Shown in pieces: positions 41,244 to 50,280 of a DNA stretch of 64,000 nucleotides. This DNA is from Nautilia sp. PV-1. Lineage in GTDB: Bacteria; Campylobacterota; Campylobacteria; Campylobacterales; Nautiliaceae. A program made the translations under genes and the position numbers. Below the pieces are notes generated by a model, which saw only the letters and a program-made list of their open reading frames with translations, had not been told where the DNA came from and ran no database searches. The DNA lies in NCBI RefSeq assembly GCF_004006315.1, contig NZ_CP026530.1, forward strand, positions 315,618 to 379,617. The letters run 5' to 3'. Numbering within the stretch: position 1 is the first letter of the stretch; each line of letters opens with the position of its first letter.

Positions 41244-41800
41244 TTATGCGCCTTTATGTATTGGATTAGTGTCTGATATATCTCTTCCGTTATATCAAAA
41301 TCTTTGATTAAATTTTCGGCTTTTACAATACCGGTCATTTTTTCTCTTAGTTTCAGCGTATTGGCGTATGTCGTAAACGTTGAAACTATAACGGTTTGGA
41401 CGTAAAACGGATTTAAGTCCGTTTCTTTGAGTATTACCGTTAAATGTTTAAGAGTTTTTGAGATGATTTTTAAGGTTTCGTCTTCAAGATGTACGGCTTC
41501 GCTTGTAATTTCTTTTGCGAAAAGTTTTGCCATACAAGGATTTTTGATAAAAAACTCACCCAGCGTATAGATATAGTTTTTTATATTCTCTTCCAATGTC
41601 GACTTAAATTCAAAAGATAGTTTTTTGAATTTTTCTACAAAAATTTCATTGTATAGCTTTTTTTTGTTTTTAAAATGATAATAAATAGCCGGTTTGGTAA
41701 TTCCGGCTTCTTTGGCTATCTCTTCCAAAGAAGTGTTTTCATAGCCGTTGTTTGCGAACAGTTTAATGGATACTTTTAAAATTTCGTCTTTTGTGGCCAT
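41240..41800 (-). CDS. TetR-family transcriptional repressor of the efflux operon
   Basis: 186 residues. The N-terminal helix-turn-helix is clear: FANNGYENTSLEEIAKEAGI followed by KPAIYYHFKNKKKLY. The C-terminal ligand domain is helical with no recognised signature. It is first in the operon, and a near-perfect palindrome (41809-41826) lies just upstream of its ATG next to a -10 box, so autoregulation is likely. Ligand unknown. Confidence 0.92.
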   Translation of the reverse strand: MATKDEILKVSIKLFANNGYENTSLEEIAKEAGITKPAIYYHFKNKKKLYNEIFVEKFKKLSFEFKSTLEENIKNYIYTLGEFFIKNPCMAKLFAKEITSEAVHLEDETLKIISKTLKHLTVILKETDLNPFYVQTVIVSTFTTYANTLKLREKMTGIVKAENLIKDFDITEEIYQTLIQYIKAHK

Positions 41801-41876: not shown

Positions 41877-42464
41877 ATGAAAAAGTTACTGTTAATAGGG
41901 TTAAGCGCGGCTGTTTTGTTTGCGGCTTCTAATGAAGATATTAATAAAAAACTGGACCTACTGCTTCAAAAAATTGAACAGCTTGAGAAAAAAGTTGATA
42001 AAAAAGACGCTGAAATAAATCAGTTAAAACAAGAAATCCAGACACAGCAAAAAGAGATTAAAAAAAGCAATGAAGAAGTGAAAAAAGAGGTTAAAACCCA
42101 GCTTGCCACAAAAAGCTGCAAAAAAATCAAAGTTGTAAACCTAAAATATAAATATCATGACGAAGTGTTGCCTTATTATGATTTAACTGTAACATTAAAA
42201 AACACATATCCTAAAAAGATAGTATATCTTTCAGGGAATCTTTTCGTTGAAGATAAAGACGGTGTAAAAATTTTGCAGGATTACATAAAAAGAAAAGTAG
42301 ATCTTCCTGTCGGAGCGGAAATTACCATACATAAAACACATCAGTTAAATTCTGATTTGGAAAAATATTTGGCAACTGAAAATCCTAAAAATCTGAAAAT
42401 ATATTTTGAAGTAATAAAAGCCAAATTTGCAGACGGAACAAACGTAGAGTGCGGAATATTCTAG
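41877..42464 (+). CDS. Secreted coiled-coil protein of unknown function
   Basis: 195 residues: signal peptide (about 1-17, ending FAA), a heptad-patterned coiled coil at about 20-75 (LDLLLQKIEQLEKKV onward), a lone Cys near 80, and a C-terminal beta-sandwich-like domain with VVNLKYKY, DLTVTLKNTYPKKIVYLSGNL and a second Cys near the end. The two cysteines could form a disulfide in the periplasm. It is divergent from tetR and ends in a terminator. Confidence 0.65.
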   Translation: MKKLLLIGLSAAVLFAASNEDINKKLDLLLQKIEQLEKKVDKKDAEINQLKQEIQTQQKEIKKSNEEVKKEVKTQLATKSCKKIKVVNLKYKYHDEVLPYYDLTVTLKNTYPKKIVYLSGNLFVEDKDGVKILQDYIKRKVDLPVGAEITIHKTHQLNSDLEKYLATENPKNLKIYFEVIKAKFADGTNVECGIF

Positions 42465-45660: not shown

Positions 45661-46013
45661 CAGTTTTTGTTTACGGCAGTTTAAAACAAAATAAAAAACT
45701 TCACGACTTTCTCAAAAACGCCGAGTTTTTGGGAAAAGCCGTAACATGTAAAAAATATCCTCTTATTTTAAGCCCTTCCGGATGGTATCCATATCTGCTT
45801 AATATTCCTAATACCGGTTTTAATATCAAAGGCGAAGTGTATAAAATAAATTATAATCTGTTAAAAAAACTGGACAGGCTTGAAGAAGTGCCTTTTTATT
45901 ACAAAAGAAAACGTATTTGTGTTAAAATTAACAGTAAAAGCATATCGGCATGGGTGTATTTTTATGCCGGTAATAAAAAGTTTCTTGTTAAAGACCTTAT
46001 TGAAGAGTTTTAG
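45657..46013 (+). CDS. Gamma-glutamylcyclotransferase-like protein
   Basis: 118 residues with the AIG2/GGCT fold: the substrate loop FVYGSLKQN at 4-12 and the catalytic Glu region DRLEEVPFYYKRK. Such enzymes make 5-oxoproline from gamma-glutamyl compounds or gamma-glutamylamines. The substrate is unknown here. The ATG overlaps the previous stop. Confidence 0.82.
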   Translation: MTVFVYGSLKQNKKLHDFLKNAEFLGKAVTCKKYPLILSPSGWYPYLLNIPNTGFNIKGEVYKINYNLLKKLDRLEEVPFYYKRKRICVKINSKSISAWVYFYAGNKKFLVKDLIEEF

Positions 46014-46045
46014 TTTAAGTACGGTTGAGGTTGTAGTTTTACAAT
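46012..46045 (+). promoter_or_regulatory. Response-regulator site and promoter of the two-component genes
   Basis: AGTTTA, 5 bp, GGTTGA, then exactly 11 bp to TACAAT (46040-46045). The second half-site has two mismatches to the sites at 47853 and 49604. Confidence 0.45.
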
Positions 46046-46064
46046 AAAAGAAAAAAAGGCCGTT

Positions 46065-46724
46065 ATGAAAAGAAGAATATTAATAGTGGAAGACGATATC
46101 ACGTTAAATGAAACGCTTAAAGAGTTTTTAGAATATAACAACTTTAAAACAATCAGCGTATATGACGGAGACAGTGCAGTAAGCGAAGCGTATGAGAACC
46201 TTTACGATTTGATTTTGCTTGATATTAAACTTCCAGGAATGAACGGTTTTGACGCGGCTAAAGAGATTAGAAAATTTTCTGACGCTCCCATTATTTTTAT
46301 AACATCCCTTGACAGTGAAAAAGACGTTGAAAAAGGCTTCATAAGCGGAGGAGACGATTATATAAGAAAACCTTTTTCGTTAAAAGAGCTGAAACTCAGG
46401 ATAGACGCCGTGTTTAGAAGAATCTACGGCAACAGCGAGAAAGTTGATTTAGGAGACAGGTTTGAGTTTGATGTTATAAATATGGAACTTTTAAAAAATT
46501 CCGAACCCGTACATCTCAAAACCAAAGTCGTCAAATTATTAAATCTATTTATAAAACACAAGGGTGAGGTGTTGAGCAAAGAGCAGATATTCAACGAAAT
46601 ATACGATTACAACGAAACTCCTAACGAAGCGTCTTTAAGAACTTTTGTTAAAACTTTAAGATCCGTTTTGGGCAATGATAAAATACAAACGGTAAAAGAA
46701 GTGGGGTATAAATTTGTCGGCTGA
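46065..46724 (+). CDS. OmpR-family response regulator
   Basis: 219 residues. Receiver domain with the acidic pair EDD (9-11), phospho-acceptor Asp53 in LLDIKLPGMNG, Thr and Lys (FITS, RKPFS); then an OmpR-type winged helix (about 125-219) ending VKEVGYKFVG. It overlaps the kinase gene by 11 bp. I infer that it activates its own gene and the two DUF2202 genes downstream, based on shared direct repeats. Confidence 0.93.
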   Translation: MKRRILIVEDDITLNETLKEFLEYNNFKTISVYDGDSAVSEAYENLYDLILLDIKLPGMNGFDAAKEIRKFSDAPIIFITSLDSEKDVEKGFISGGDDYIRKPFSLKELKLRIDAVFRRIYGNSEKVDLGDRFEFDVINMELLKNSEPVHLKTKVVKLLNLFIKHKGEVLSKEQIFNEIYDYNETPNEASLRTFVKTLRSVLGNDKIQTVKEVGYKFVG

Positions 46725-47853
46725 GAAAAAAAGTTTAAGAAGGTTTTTGTTTATATATATTATATCTACACTGCTGCTTGCCGGGATAGGCGAGTGGTTT
46801 TATTTCAAATCCAAATACCATGCGCAGATAGATTCCCAGATTTTACAGCTTAGTAATGAACTTAAGCTTTTTTTGGCGGAAAACAAGGGAATGCTTAGAA
46901 AATTAAGATTTTCTAATTTAAAAAAAATTCCTGAAATAAAAAATTTAGATATTGCGGTATATAAAGACGGCAGTTATATGTTCGGTAATTTTAAACCGTC
47001 AAAAATACATTGGAATAAAGAATACTGGATGGATAGCAACAAAATTTATTATCTTTATACAATGCCTAAAAGATGGGGGAAAGTGGATATTCTGGTTTCC
47101 AAGCCTGTCGATAAAAGGCAGATAAAGGAGCTGAAAAATCAGATTATTGTTTTTAACGCTTTTTTACTTATATTTGTGATTTTCGTTGCTTATATGCTTG
47201 GAAAGATATTTTTAAAACCTCTTAAAAGCAGCGTTGAAATGCTTGAAGACTTCATACGCGACGCCACACATGAGATGAATACGCCGATAAGCGTTATTCT
47301 GACCAATATAGAAATGCTTAAAATGAAAGATATCGAGTCCAAAGAGCTTAGCAGGATAGAGTTTTCGGCTAAAAGACTTGAAAAGATATTTAAAGATCTC
47401 GCTTTTGTGAGGCTTAATCACAGACAAAAAAAAGATATCGGCAAAATGAATTTAAAAGAGCTGTTGCAAAACAGAATTACAATATTTAACACCCTTCTTG
47501 AAAATAAAAACATAAGACTTCAGAAAAACTGCGAAGACGTGTATGTGGAAGCGGACAGGGAAGATATTATCAGGCTTGTAGACAATCTGCTTTCAAATGC
47601 GATTAAATATTCTCCTTCCAATGAAATAGTGATTATCTCCTTAAAAGACGGTGTTTTACAGATGTTCAATAAAGGGAAAATACAAAATATTTCAAAAATT
47701 ACCAGAAAATTTTACAGGGAAAATAATAATGAAGGCGGTTTTGGGCTGGGACTTTATATTATTAAAAAAATTTGCGACTACTACGGTTTTGAGTTCAGTA
47801 TCAAAAATGAAAACGGTTTTGTAAAAACACAAGTTTCTTTTAAAACCGGATGA
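46714..47853 (+). CDS. Sensor histidine kinase partner
   Basis: 379 residues from TTG 46714. Two membrane spans (about 9-29 and 145-168) bracket a periplasmic sensor region of about 115 residues with no recognised domain. The phospho-acceptor His is in FIRDATHEMNTPIS, followed by the DNLLSNAIKYSP N-box and GFGLGLYIIKK G2 box. There is no HAMP domain signature of normal length. The short sensor region gives no clue to the stimulus. Confidence 0.92.
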   Translation: MSAEKKSLRRFLFIYIISTLLLAGIGEWFYFKSKYHAQIDSQILQLSNELKLFLAENKGMLRKLRFSNLKKIPEIKNLDIAVYKDGSYMFGNFKPSKIHWNKEYWMDSNKIYYLYTMPKRWGKVDILVSKPVDKRQIKELKNQIIVFNAFLLIFVIFVAYMLGKIFLKPLKSSVEMLEDFIRDATHEMNTPISVILTNIEMLKMKDIESKELSRIEFSAKRLEKIFKDLAFVRLNHRQKKDIGKMNLKELLQNRITIFNTLLENKNIRLQKNCEDVYVEADREDIIRLVDNLLSNAIKYSPSNEIVIISLKDGVLQMFNKGKIQNISKITRKFYRENNNEGGFGLGLYIIKKICDYYGFEFSIKNENGFVKTQVSFKTG

Positions 47854-47886
47854 GTTTATATTCAGTTCATTTCATCCTTTTATAAT
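47853..47886 (+). promoter_or_regulatory. Response-regulator site and promoter of DUF2202-DUF4405
   Basis: AGTTTA, 5 bp, AGTTCA, 11 bp, TATAAT (47881-47886). Half-sites are 11 bp apart, as for OmpR/PhoB-type activators, and take the place of a -35. Confidence 0.6.
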
Positions 47887-47912
47887 TAGTTAAAACCTAT
47901 AAGGAGGATGGA

Positions 47913-48842
47913 ATGAAAAAACTAATTATTCCAGTTATTGCAGCGGTTTTCGGAATGCCTCTTATTGCTTCTACATCTTTTTCGCCTATAGAAAAAACTG
48001 TTCTTAATATTAAAAAATCGGCTTTAAGTATCAGAGAGAAAAAAGATCTTATTCATATGAGAGAAGAAGAAAAACTGACACACGATGTATATCTGACACT
48101 GTATAAAAAATGGAAACTTCCTGTATTTAAAAACATAGCAAAAGCCGAGCAGTGGCATATGCATATGATTAAACTTCTGCTTGATAAATATAACCACCTT
48201 CCGGATCCTGTATTTAAAACAGGAGACAGAATAGGAGTATTTAAAAACAGAAAACTTCAAAGACTTTACGACAAACTGGTTGCCAAAGGGTCAAAGAGCC
48301 TTATTGACGCTTTAAAAGTCGGAGCCACTATAGAGGATGTGGATATTTATGACCTTAAAAAAGCTATTGAAGATACGGACAATAAAGACATAGCTGTTGT
48401 ATATAGAAATCTTGAAAAAGGAAGCCGTAACCATATGAGGGCTTTTGTAGGTATTTTAAGAAAATACGGAAGCGATTATACTCCTCAGTATATTTCGTCA
48501 AAAGAATTCAGACGTATTTTAAATATGAAACACGAAGCCGGTATGATCGGAAGCGTTCAATACGGTTCGGGAGAGATTTACGGAAAAGTATTGAAAGTAT
48601 ATAAAACTCCCGGAATTAAAAACAGAAAAATAAACTGGTGGATTGTTGAGGTTAAAACCCCAAAAGGTATTTTAAAAGCGGCGGTTACTACGGATTTCGT
48701 TTATAAAAAACTGAACGTTAAACCGGGTGATAGAGTTGAATTGAAAGGTTATAACGGAATATACGGTTTCGTAACATGCGAAATAGAGGATAAAACAAGC
48801 GGATTTGAGCATAAAAACAGCTTTAAAAGGTGTAGAAAATGA
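47913..48842 (+). CDS. Secreted DUF2202 ferritin-like protein with C-terminal extra domain
   Basis: 309 residues: signal peptide (about 1-22), a DUF2202 ferritin-like domain (about 45-195) with the possible metal ligands EEEK at 51-54, Glu79 and His82, Glu141, and Glu168/His174, then a C-terminal beta-rich domain (about 210-309) that looks OB-like, with two Cys near the end. Probably periplasmic di-metal. It overlaps the DUF4405 gene by 4 bp. Function of DUF2202 is not established. Confidence 0.82.
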   Translation: MKKLIIPVIAAVFGMPLIASTSFSPIEKTVLNIKKSALSIREKKDLIHMREEEKLTHDVYLTLYKKWKLPVFKNIAKAEQWHMHMIKLLLDKYNHLPDPVFKTGDRIGVFKNRKLQRLYDKLVAKGSKSLIDALKVGATIEDVDIYDLKKAIEDTDNKDIAVVYRNLEKGSRNHMRAFVGILRKYGSDYTPQYISSKEFRRILNMKHEAGMIGSVQYGSGEIYGKVLKVYKTPGIKNRKINWWIVEVKTPKGILKAAVTTDFVYKKLNVKPGDRVELKGYNGIYGFVTCEIEDKTSGFEHKNSFKRCRK

Positions 48843-49603
48843 AAAGAAAATGGATAGACCTGCTGCTGTTTTACGTAATGGTTATGATTATTGTAAGCGG
48901 TATAGTTTTATATATTATGCCGCACGGCCGGGTGGCTTATTTTACCGGCTGGAAATTTTTGGGTGTTGACAAGGACGGATGGGATAATATTCACGTTATT
49001 TTCGGCTTTTTAATGGTTGTAGTTGCCGTATGGCATATTATTGTAAACTGGAAAGTTATGAAAAAATACCTTTTGCAAAAAGAGTCTGTTTTTGCCCTGC
49101 TTATTACTGCGGTTATTACAATAGGCACCGTTGCGAATATTCAGCTGTTTAAGAGCGTGAGCGATTTGGAAGAAACGATTAAAAATTCATGGGATGTGAA
49201 TAAAAAAGCGATTCCAATTTCGCACGGTGAACTGCTTAGTCTTAAAGATTTTTGCGAAAGACTTAATATTAATCTGAATAAAGCCGTGCAGAAACTTAAA
49301 TCTAAAAGATACAGTTTTAATATAAACGATACGTTAAAAACCATTGCCAAAAACAACAATACAACACCGGCAGACATTTATGAAGTTATTAAAAACGCAA
49401 AAACCGTTTCACTTCTGCAGGGAAGCGGTTTTGGAAGAATGACTTTAAAAGAAGTGTGTCAAAAAGAGGGTGTCGATGTTAACGTATGTGTTAAAAAACT
49501 AGAATCCAAAGGCATAAAAGCTTCAGCTGACAAAACACTTAGAGAAATTGCTTTTCCTAACGTAATTACACCTATGGATATTATAGATATGATTAAAAAT
49601 TAG
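48839..49603 (+). CDS. DUF4405 membrane protein, possible b-type heme protein
   Basis: 254 residues with three membrane spans (about 7-27, 51-71, 83-103). His52 and His66 in span 2, plus His29, are candidates for heme ligands, as in the cytochrome-b-like DUF4405 family. The C-terminal part contains two repeats of about 57 residues, one with LKDFCERLNINLNKAV and one with LKEVCQKEGVDVNVCV. It is translated with the upstream DUF2202 gene. A role in electron supply to the ferritin-like partners is inference. Confidence 0.8.
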   Translation: MKRKWIDLLLFYVMVMIIVSGIVLYIMPHGRVAYFTGWKFLGVDKDGWDNIHVIFGFLMVVVAVWHIIVNWKVMKKYLLQKESVFALLITAVITIGTVANIQLFKSVSDLEETIKNSWDVNKKAIPISHGELLSLKDFCERLNINLNKAVQKLKSKRYSFNINDTLKTIAKNNNTTPADIYEVIKNAKTVSLLQGSGFGRMTLKEVCQKEGVDVNVCVKKLESKGIKASADKTLREIAFPNVITPMDIIDMIKN

Positions 49604-49637
49604 AGTTTATATACAGTTTACGTTATGTAAATAAAAT
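49604..49637 (+). promoter_or_regulatory. Response-regulator site and promoter of the second DUF2202 gene
   Basis: AGTTTA, 5 bp, AGTTTA, 11 bp, TAAAAT (49632-49637). The stretch 49603-49626 matches 47852-47875 at 19 of 24 positions. Confidence 0.6.
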
Positions 49638-49668: not shown

Positions 49669-50280
49669 ATGAAAATAAAAATACTTGCTTTTTTGATGCT
49701 GGCGGTGAATCTTTTTGCTCTTACGCCTAAAGAAAAACACGCTTTGAATTATATGTATCAGGAAGAAAAACTTGCACGCGACGTATATTTTGAACTTGGA
49801 AAAATGTATCCGGATTTGAGGGTGTTTAATATATACCGTTCTGAGATTATGCATGAAAACAGTGTCGCTAACGTAATGAAACATTACGGGCTGCCTCTTC
49901 CTGTAAGAGGAGACAAAGTCGGTAAATTTGTAAATCCTGAGCTTCAGAAACTTTATGACGAACTGATTGCAAAAGGGAAAAAATCTCTCAAAGACGCACT
50001 TGAAGTGGGAATTATGGTTGAGGTTACGGATGTTAACGATTTAAACAAATATTTATATAATGCCGTGTCTCCGGATGTGATAGCTCTATTTAAATTTTTA
50101 AGAGCCGGAAGCTATAATCATTATAATGCATTTAACAGGACTCTTATTTCTGTAACAGGCAAAAGCGCATGTCAGTTAATGAGTAAAGAATGGTGTAAAC
50201 ATTATCCGTTTCAAAGAGGTGTCGGAAGAAAATATATCAATTATTACTGGTTTGCTGGCAAAGGTATGATGAGAAGATAA
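49669..50280 (+). CDS. Second secreted DUF2202 ferritin-like protein
   Basis: 203 residues: signal peptide (about 1-17, ending LFA) and a DUF2202 domain with EEKL at 32-35, Glu59 and His62, and a later FLRAGSYNHYNAF helix. It lacks the extra C-terminal domain of the first DUF2202 protein; the tail is basic with a Cys pair near 165-170. Its promoter site matches that of the first copy, so both are likely induced together. It ends in a terminator. Confidence 0.82.
   Translation: MKIKILAFLMLAVNLFALTPKEKHALNYMYQEEKLARDVYFELGKMYPDLRVFNIYRSEIMHENSVANVMKHYGLPLPVRGDKVGKFVNPELQKLYDELIAKGKKSLKDALEVGIMVEVTDVNDLNKYLYNAVSPDVIALFKFLRAGSYNHYNAFNRTLISVTGKSACQLMSKEWCKHYPFQRGVGRKYINYYWFAGKGMMRR

Follow-up and report, generated by a model that had tools for sequence, protein, structure and literature searches.

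Response regulators of the OmpR/PhoB family bind direct repeats set one helical turn apart, as exemplified by PhoP of M. tuberculosis, which occupies its repeat as a tandem dimer (PMC4832192); PhoB, moreover, contacts sigma-70 (PMC4415409). The closest described system to the one presented here may be DccRS of Campylobacter jejuni, an OmpR-type pair that becomes activated in late stationary phase and governs a small regulon of putative periplasmic and membrane proteins, dccR included (PMC7118207, PMC9449129). HsrA (HP1043) of Helicobacter pylori is an orphan, essential OmpR-type regulator of direct hexamers (TTTAAG) separated by a 5-bp spacer (PMC5253667). PceP/RR2 of Sulfurospirillum, a Campylobacterota OmpR-type regulator of PCE respiration, likewise has direct repeats over the -35 position, and its gene region contains a DUF4405 gene (PMC7755780). 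DUF4405 proteins have themselves been found to bind heme b in vitro, and resemble the ferrosome protein FezC and MsrQ (PMC11334425).

The window analysed here, a stretch of 64,000 nucleotides, corresponds to positions 315618-379617 of the single 1.79-Mb contig of Nautilia sp. PV-1; the whole genome was examined by pattern search, and sequence stretches were chosen for a closer look. Five genes on the forward strand of the window are of concern, and the identities proposed for them by a sequence-only reading are borne out by their Pfam domains. The regulator (46065-46724; 219 aa) comprises a receiver and a winged helix (PF00072, 1.6e-25; PF00486, 1.2e-17), both above the cut-off, as expected of the OmpR/PhoB family. 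It stays below the cut-offs of the more specific NCBIfam models for PhoB (138.2 against 296.2) and for CusR/CopR/CzcR (TIGR01387; 115.9 against 279.2), as does the kinase for TIGR01386 (76.9 against 292.6). The latter, a membrane sensor histidine kinase with HisKA and HATPase_c domains and a TTG start (46714-47853), overlaps the regulator gene. DUF2202 protein A follows (47913-48842; PF09968, 9e-59), with a hydrophobic, signal-like N-terminal stretch and an extra C-terminal domain of ~90 aa; its gene is overlapped by that of a DUF4405 membrane protein with a soluble C-terminal half (48839-49603; PF14358, 4.8e-18), and the two are therefore probably co-transcribed. DUF2202 protein B (49669-50280; PF09968, 1.4e-32) completes the set. 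The DUF2202 matches score 198 and 113 bits against a gathering threshold of 22, and the DUF4405 match 65.9 bits against 26.7.

Three promoter boxes of one layout precede these genes on the forward strand, and the letters, spacing and positions first read from the sequence were all recovered. Box 1, at the regulator gene, spans 46012-46045 and reads AGTTTA-AGTAC-GGTTGA-N11-TACAAT (half-sites at 46012-46017 and 46023-46028; -10 element at 46040-46045). Box 2, at DUF2202 A, spans 47853-47886 and reads AGTTTA-TATTC-AGTTCA-N11-TATAAT (half-sites at 47853-47858 and 47864-47869; -10 element at 47881-47886), and box 3, at DUF2202 B, spans 49604-49637 and reads AGTTTA-TATAC-AGTTTA-N11-TAAAAT (half-sites at 49604-49609 and 49615-49620; -10 element at 49632-49637). 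Each starts at the stop codon of the gene before it or within 1-2 bases of that codon, the start of box 2 (47853) falling on the kinase stop codon itself. The 11-bp period is that of the pho box and of the M. tuberculosis PhoP sites, from which the boxes differ in their half-site (here GTTTA), as do the systems in their targets and sensor. The DccR box reportedly reads WTTCAC-N6-TTCACW and lies over the -35 position; on that consensus its register would be the one seen here, with TTCAC in relatives outside the family and GTTTA in the Nautiliaceae, where the cargo is DUF2202 and DUF4405. The best candidates for orthologues of DccRS (Cj1223c/Cj1222c) in 30 other genomes of the class are 32-43% identical. 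HsrA differs in being an orphan with TTTAAG half-sites; here a kinase adjoins the regulator. The PceP/RR2 sites are unlike the present ones in their half-site (CTATW), their 17-bp gap and the organohalide respiration genes that they serve. The heme b-binding DUF4405 family, related to FezC, stands here under a two-component box beside DUF2202 rather than beside apbE or fez.

In AT-rich intergenic DNA such boxes might resemble one another by chance, and loose searches do little to dispel the idea: with 3 mismatches allowed, the genome yields 95 matches against 76 for the reversed control, which is chance level, and the window holds 6 matches at ≤3 mismatches against 2.5 expected, box 1 being one of them at exactly 3. 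Stricter searches behave otherwise. The pattern as first proposed, with 0 mismatches, matches the window at 47853 and 49604 only, where a near-identical degenerate pattern is expected 0.002 times per 64 kb; at ≤1 mismatch the entire 1.79 Mb contains only 3 sites, 2 of them in the cluster and 1 within coding sequence, such that the genome-wide scan left few equals elsewhere. The neighbour-species copy of the coding-sequence site matches too; these exact matches (G000:657723 and G018:632120), lying inside orthologous coding sequence, were not counted as targets. A matrix trained on 14 promoter sites from other genera, with the own genus left out, ranks box 3 first (22.1), box 2 second (20.6) and box 1 fourth (15.3) among the ~128,000 positions of the window, where the next best scores 12.7; box 1 is thus not outstanding by pattern alone but is so when scored by this matrix. 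The third-ranking site (41749-41782; 18.3) lies antisense inside a TetR-type gene, 95 bp before an ORF at 41877, and is possibly a chance match; since it outscores box 1, it is counted against the main reading. Across the 21 family genomes (30.5 Mb), exact GTTTA-N6-GTTTA-N11-TATAAT occurs 16 times, against 0.23 expected from an order-1 model, and 11 of the 16 lie at the orthologous cluster. Similarly, among 397 genomes of the class, exact GTTYA-type matches are present in 8 of 9 Nautiliaceae but in just 12 of the remaining 388, a single one of these lying at the locus of the related regulator. With out-of-sample ranking, exact matches and linkage all far above expectation, a chance origin is hardly credible: to the extent that sequence allows, the comparative data refute it.

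Relatives were found by sequence; they bear the labels of Nautiliaceae or Campylobacterales MAGs, apart from a few that fall outside. Orthologues of the regulator occur in 13 of the 21 family genomes, its own included, and the presumed recognition helix hardly varies within the family. Comparison of the orthologous promoters upheld the expectation that the repeat would be kept with the cluster: in each of the 12 relatives whose promoter is visible, the box precedes the first gene after the kinase. This gene may be DUF2202A, a small secreted protein that stands alone, or DUF2202B, which comes directly after the kinase in G011 and G014. The box before DUF2202B is found in G000 and G018. No clear box was seen at two DUF2202 genes that lie outside a two-component cluster, one in G009 and the other an additional copy in G004, and family genomes without the regulator have no exact matches to the family pattern, except for the decayed cluster copy of G017, itself one of the 12. 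On this comparative evidence, the pairing of regulator and box is very probably a real and previously undescribed control circuit.

Several local rearrangements were observed. The C-terminal ~90 aa of DUF2202A (48560-48842) recur as the stand-alone small secreted protein at five loci (L034, L035, L037, L110 and L118), often under the same box; the one that was tested has no Pfam match. In G018 (L106, 5629-6962), the kinase and DUF2202A are separated by two inserted genes, for a membrane transporter and a regulator of ArsR type, yet the box before DUF2202A is kept. In the G017 copy (L109, 3900-6400), frame breaks and small deletions affect the regulator, kinase and DUF2202 genes while the box seems intact; the copy is either decayed or marred by assembly errors.

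The putative regulon appears to exceed the cluster. An unlinked site at 940311 on the reverse strand, AGTTTAAGAACGGTTGA-N11-TATAAT, starts 57 bp before an HlyD-FtsX-ATPase-TolC operon. HlyD orthologues are confined to 4 of the 21 family genomes; in genus g3, TolC-HlyD-FtsX genes lie directly after the DUF2202 or small-protein gene, inside the two-component cluster (identities of 78-81% for FtsX, 52-53% for HlyD and 33-35% for TolC), and in G359, from another family, HlyD, FtsX (60%) and ATPase (64%) genes directly precede a related regulator-kinase pair. A second site, at 1284239 on the reverse strand, precedes a gene for a Gln/Met-rich protein of 91 aa that is present in only three family genomes; an in-register box lies before it in all three, with one half-site degenerate in each, and this small protein is probably also a member. 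Separately, operons for a LolD-type ATPase and FtsX in two genera (G002:C1:292629 and G018:C1:533646) both carry the box; the ATPases are 93% identical in protein, and the copies may share a recent transfer. In G002, another OmpR-type two-component system is divergent to this operon.

A different box emerged at an operon encoding PqqD-like, ATP-grasp and decarboxylase-like proteins (G000:C1:653323 and orthologues L159-L175). Matches there (L130, L152 and L154) were considered as targets and rejected, as they turned out to belong to a distinct conserved 11-bp direct repeat of GTTWAC type, a second OmpR-type box, located 10-11 bp from the -10 element in nearly all family genomes that have the operon, with or without the two-component system. 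With some unlinked matches belonging to this other box, a different regulator might bind some of the sites, a point that counts against the main reading.

Taking the boxes together with gene linkage and the way in which they are conserved at these genes, we infer that NGTTTA-N5-NGTTTA, 11 bp before the -10 element, is the operator of the regulator at 46065-46724, and we think it highly probable that the cluster, the exporter and further genes are activated from it in a PhoB-like manner. The system may work as DccRS and PhoB do. In this mechanism, the adjacent kinase would phosphorylate the regulator, two molecules of which would line up head-to-tail along one DNA face at the -35 position and recruit RNA polymerase. 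The regulator would act directly on DUF2202B, on the operon of DUF2202A and DUF4405 and on the unlinked HlyD-FtsX-ATPase-TolC operon, probably on the gene for the small Gln/Met-rich protein and, within this genus and some of the next, on its own operon. The 11-bp repeat, one helical turn, recurs in the relatives and is in keeping with the OmpR/PhoB-type period originally suggested; because the second half-site ends 11 bp before the -10 element, the pair straddles the -35 position, a geometry that fits class II activation. Period, placement and putative targets as first proposed are supported by the sequence comparisons; binding and the direction of regulation are predicted. Occupancy of the -35 region would also suit a repressor, with polymerase blocked until a signal relieves it; yet neither box 1 nor box 2 has a consensus -35 or was picked up as a sigma-70 promoter with one. 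Such promoters should be weak unaided, as expected where transcription depends on an activator, and class II activators, PhoB among them, typically keep a strict spacing to the -10 element, which makes repression by the linked regulator quite improbable.

Alternatively, a different OmpR-type regulator of the cell might occupy the boxes, for instance an orthologue of the orphan HsrA/HP1043/CosR, whose TTTAAG-N5-TTTAAG site has the 11-bp period and 5-bp spacer in common with them (PMC5253667). Box 1 can be read as TTTAAG-N5-TTGAGG, and the presence of the GTTWAC box at an unrelated operon implies several such regulators in the family. In the 14 training sites, however, the G of GTTTA never varies, while HsrA's AAG is not retained. 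In the same frame, box 2 is TTTATA-N5-TTCATT and box 3 is TTTATA-N5-TTTACG; only box 1 has a TTTAAG, and a single one. Exact matches to the family pattern are, furthermore, absent from family genomes that lack the linked regulator, apart from the decayed copy noted above. We therefore regard an HsrA-type regulator as a very doubtful candidate, and return to the linked regulator as the likely activator.

Whether this activator also controls itself is the weaker part of the interpretation. Box 1 is degenerate in its second half-site (GGTTGA) and -10 element (TACAAT), and a box is missing at the regulator in 7 of the 13 family genomes (G001, G004, G005, G010, G011, G014 and G015), in several of these because the gene lies flush with, or overlaps, the one upstream. 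These observations would suit a regulator that controls its targets and not itself, box 1 being decayed or a chance match. We nevertheless consider this unlikely, given that the regulator promoter of G018 has a good box (AGTTTA-N5-GGTTTA) in the same place as box 1, as do G002, G003, G006 and G007, bringing the genomes with a box at the regulator, G000 included, to 6 of 13. Self-regulation is accordingly likely in this genome, though not constant across the family; of the self-activating regulator with direct targets that was originally envisaged, it is the targets, with boxes in 12 of 12 relatives, that are the better supported.

Related regulators in other families, mostly 43-54% identical, are accompanied by TTCAC-type repeats that share the 11-bp period and likewise stand 11 bp from the -10 element. 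These precede adjacent genes for periplasmic proteins, namely small cytochrome-type proteins in f8, TolC in G262 and, in f2 and f3, proteins with signal peptides, those of DUF1104 type among them. In f8, the presumed recognition helix differs from that of the Nautiliaceae, as does the half-site. A fixed scan found such repeats on the sense strand at 11/17 and 14/30 loci, compared with 2 and 2 on the antisense strand and 0.1 and 0.45 in shuffles; the TTCAC consensus had been picked after some of the scanned loci were viewed, so these counts are supportive rather than a blind test. At a Sulfurospirillum MAG locus (L036), simple GTTTA repeats were looked for and not found; a degenerate in-register pair, ATTTCA-N5-CATTAA-N11-CATAAT, is readable by eye. 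In the Desulfurellaceae, a regulator orthologue (L031/L032) adjoins TonB-ExbBD and TonB receptor genes, with a GTTYA repeat ~200 bp before the regulator; the best NCBIfam match of the receptor is to a copper receptor, below the cut-off. Tentatively, these loci might reflect a regulator lineage spanning the class in Campylobacterota, with relatives in the Desulfurellaceae, in which the promoter design (the 11-bp repeat, 11 bp from the -10 element) is constant and the periplasmic cargo is swapped: DUF2202 and heme DUF4405 in the Nautiliaceae, c-type cytochromes, DUF1104 or Met-rich proteins elsewhere, and a tripartite exporter repeatedly alongside. This would amount to a general response of the envelope to metal or redox stress, of which DccRS would be the part already known, a proposal that we think slightly more apt to fail than to hold.

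No paper on DUF2202 was found in the library searched. DUF2202A closely matches the protein MJ0754 of an archaeal methanogen (PDB 3q4n; E 2e-65), a likeness that suggests transfer between vent organisms. We take the fold of MJ0754, and of the DUF2202 family, to be ferritin-like; the predicted structure of DUF2202A (mean pLDDT 59) is too uncertain to use. Given DUF2202, the heme-b DUF4405 protein, the exporter and the Met-rich proteins in related loci, we infer that the likeliest role of the cluster is a periplasmic metal or redox stress response, for which we would allow about an even chance. Copper as the signal is weakly suggested by the Met-rich proteins and the sub-threshold match of the TonB receptor; copper was reported not to activate DccRS in C. 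jejuni (PMC7118207).

What appears to be new is the cargo, DUF2202 and DUF4405, under an OmpR/PhoB-type pair of known type. The circuit would open a first way into the regulation of DUF2202, a domain that it would place, through a single regulator, alongside a tripartite exporter and a family of heme-b cytochromes. The promoter design, being deeply conserved, would also offer a test case of how one regulator keeps its geometry constant while half-site and targets drift, and the box would make the regulon predictable in the hydrothermal-vent Nautiliaceae, where regulation has been little studied.
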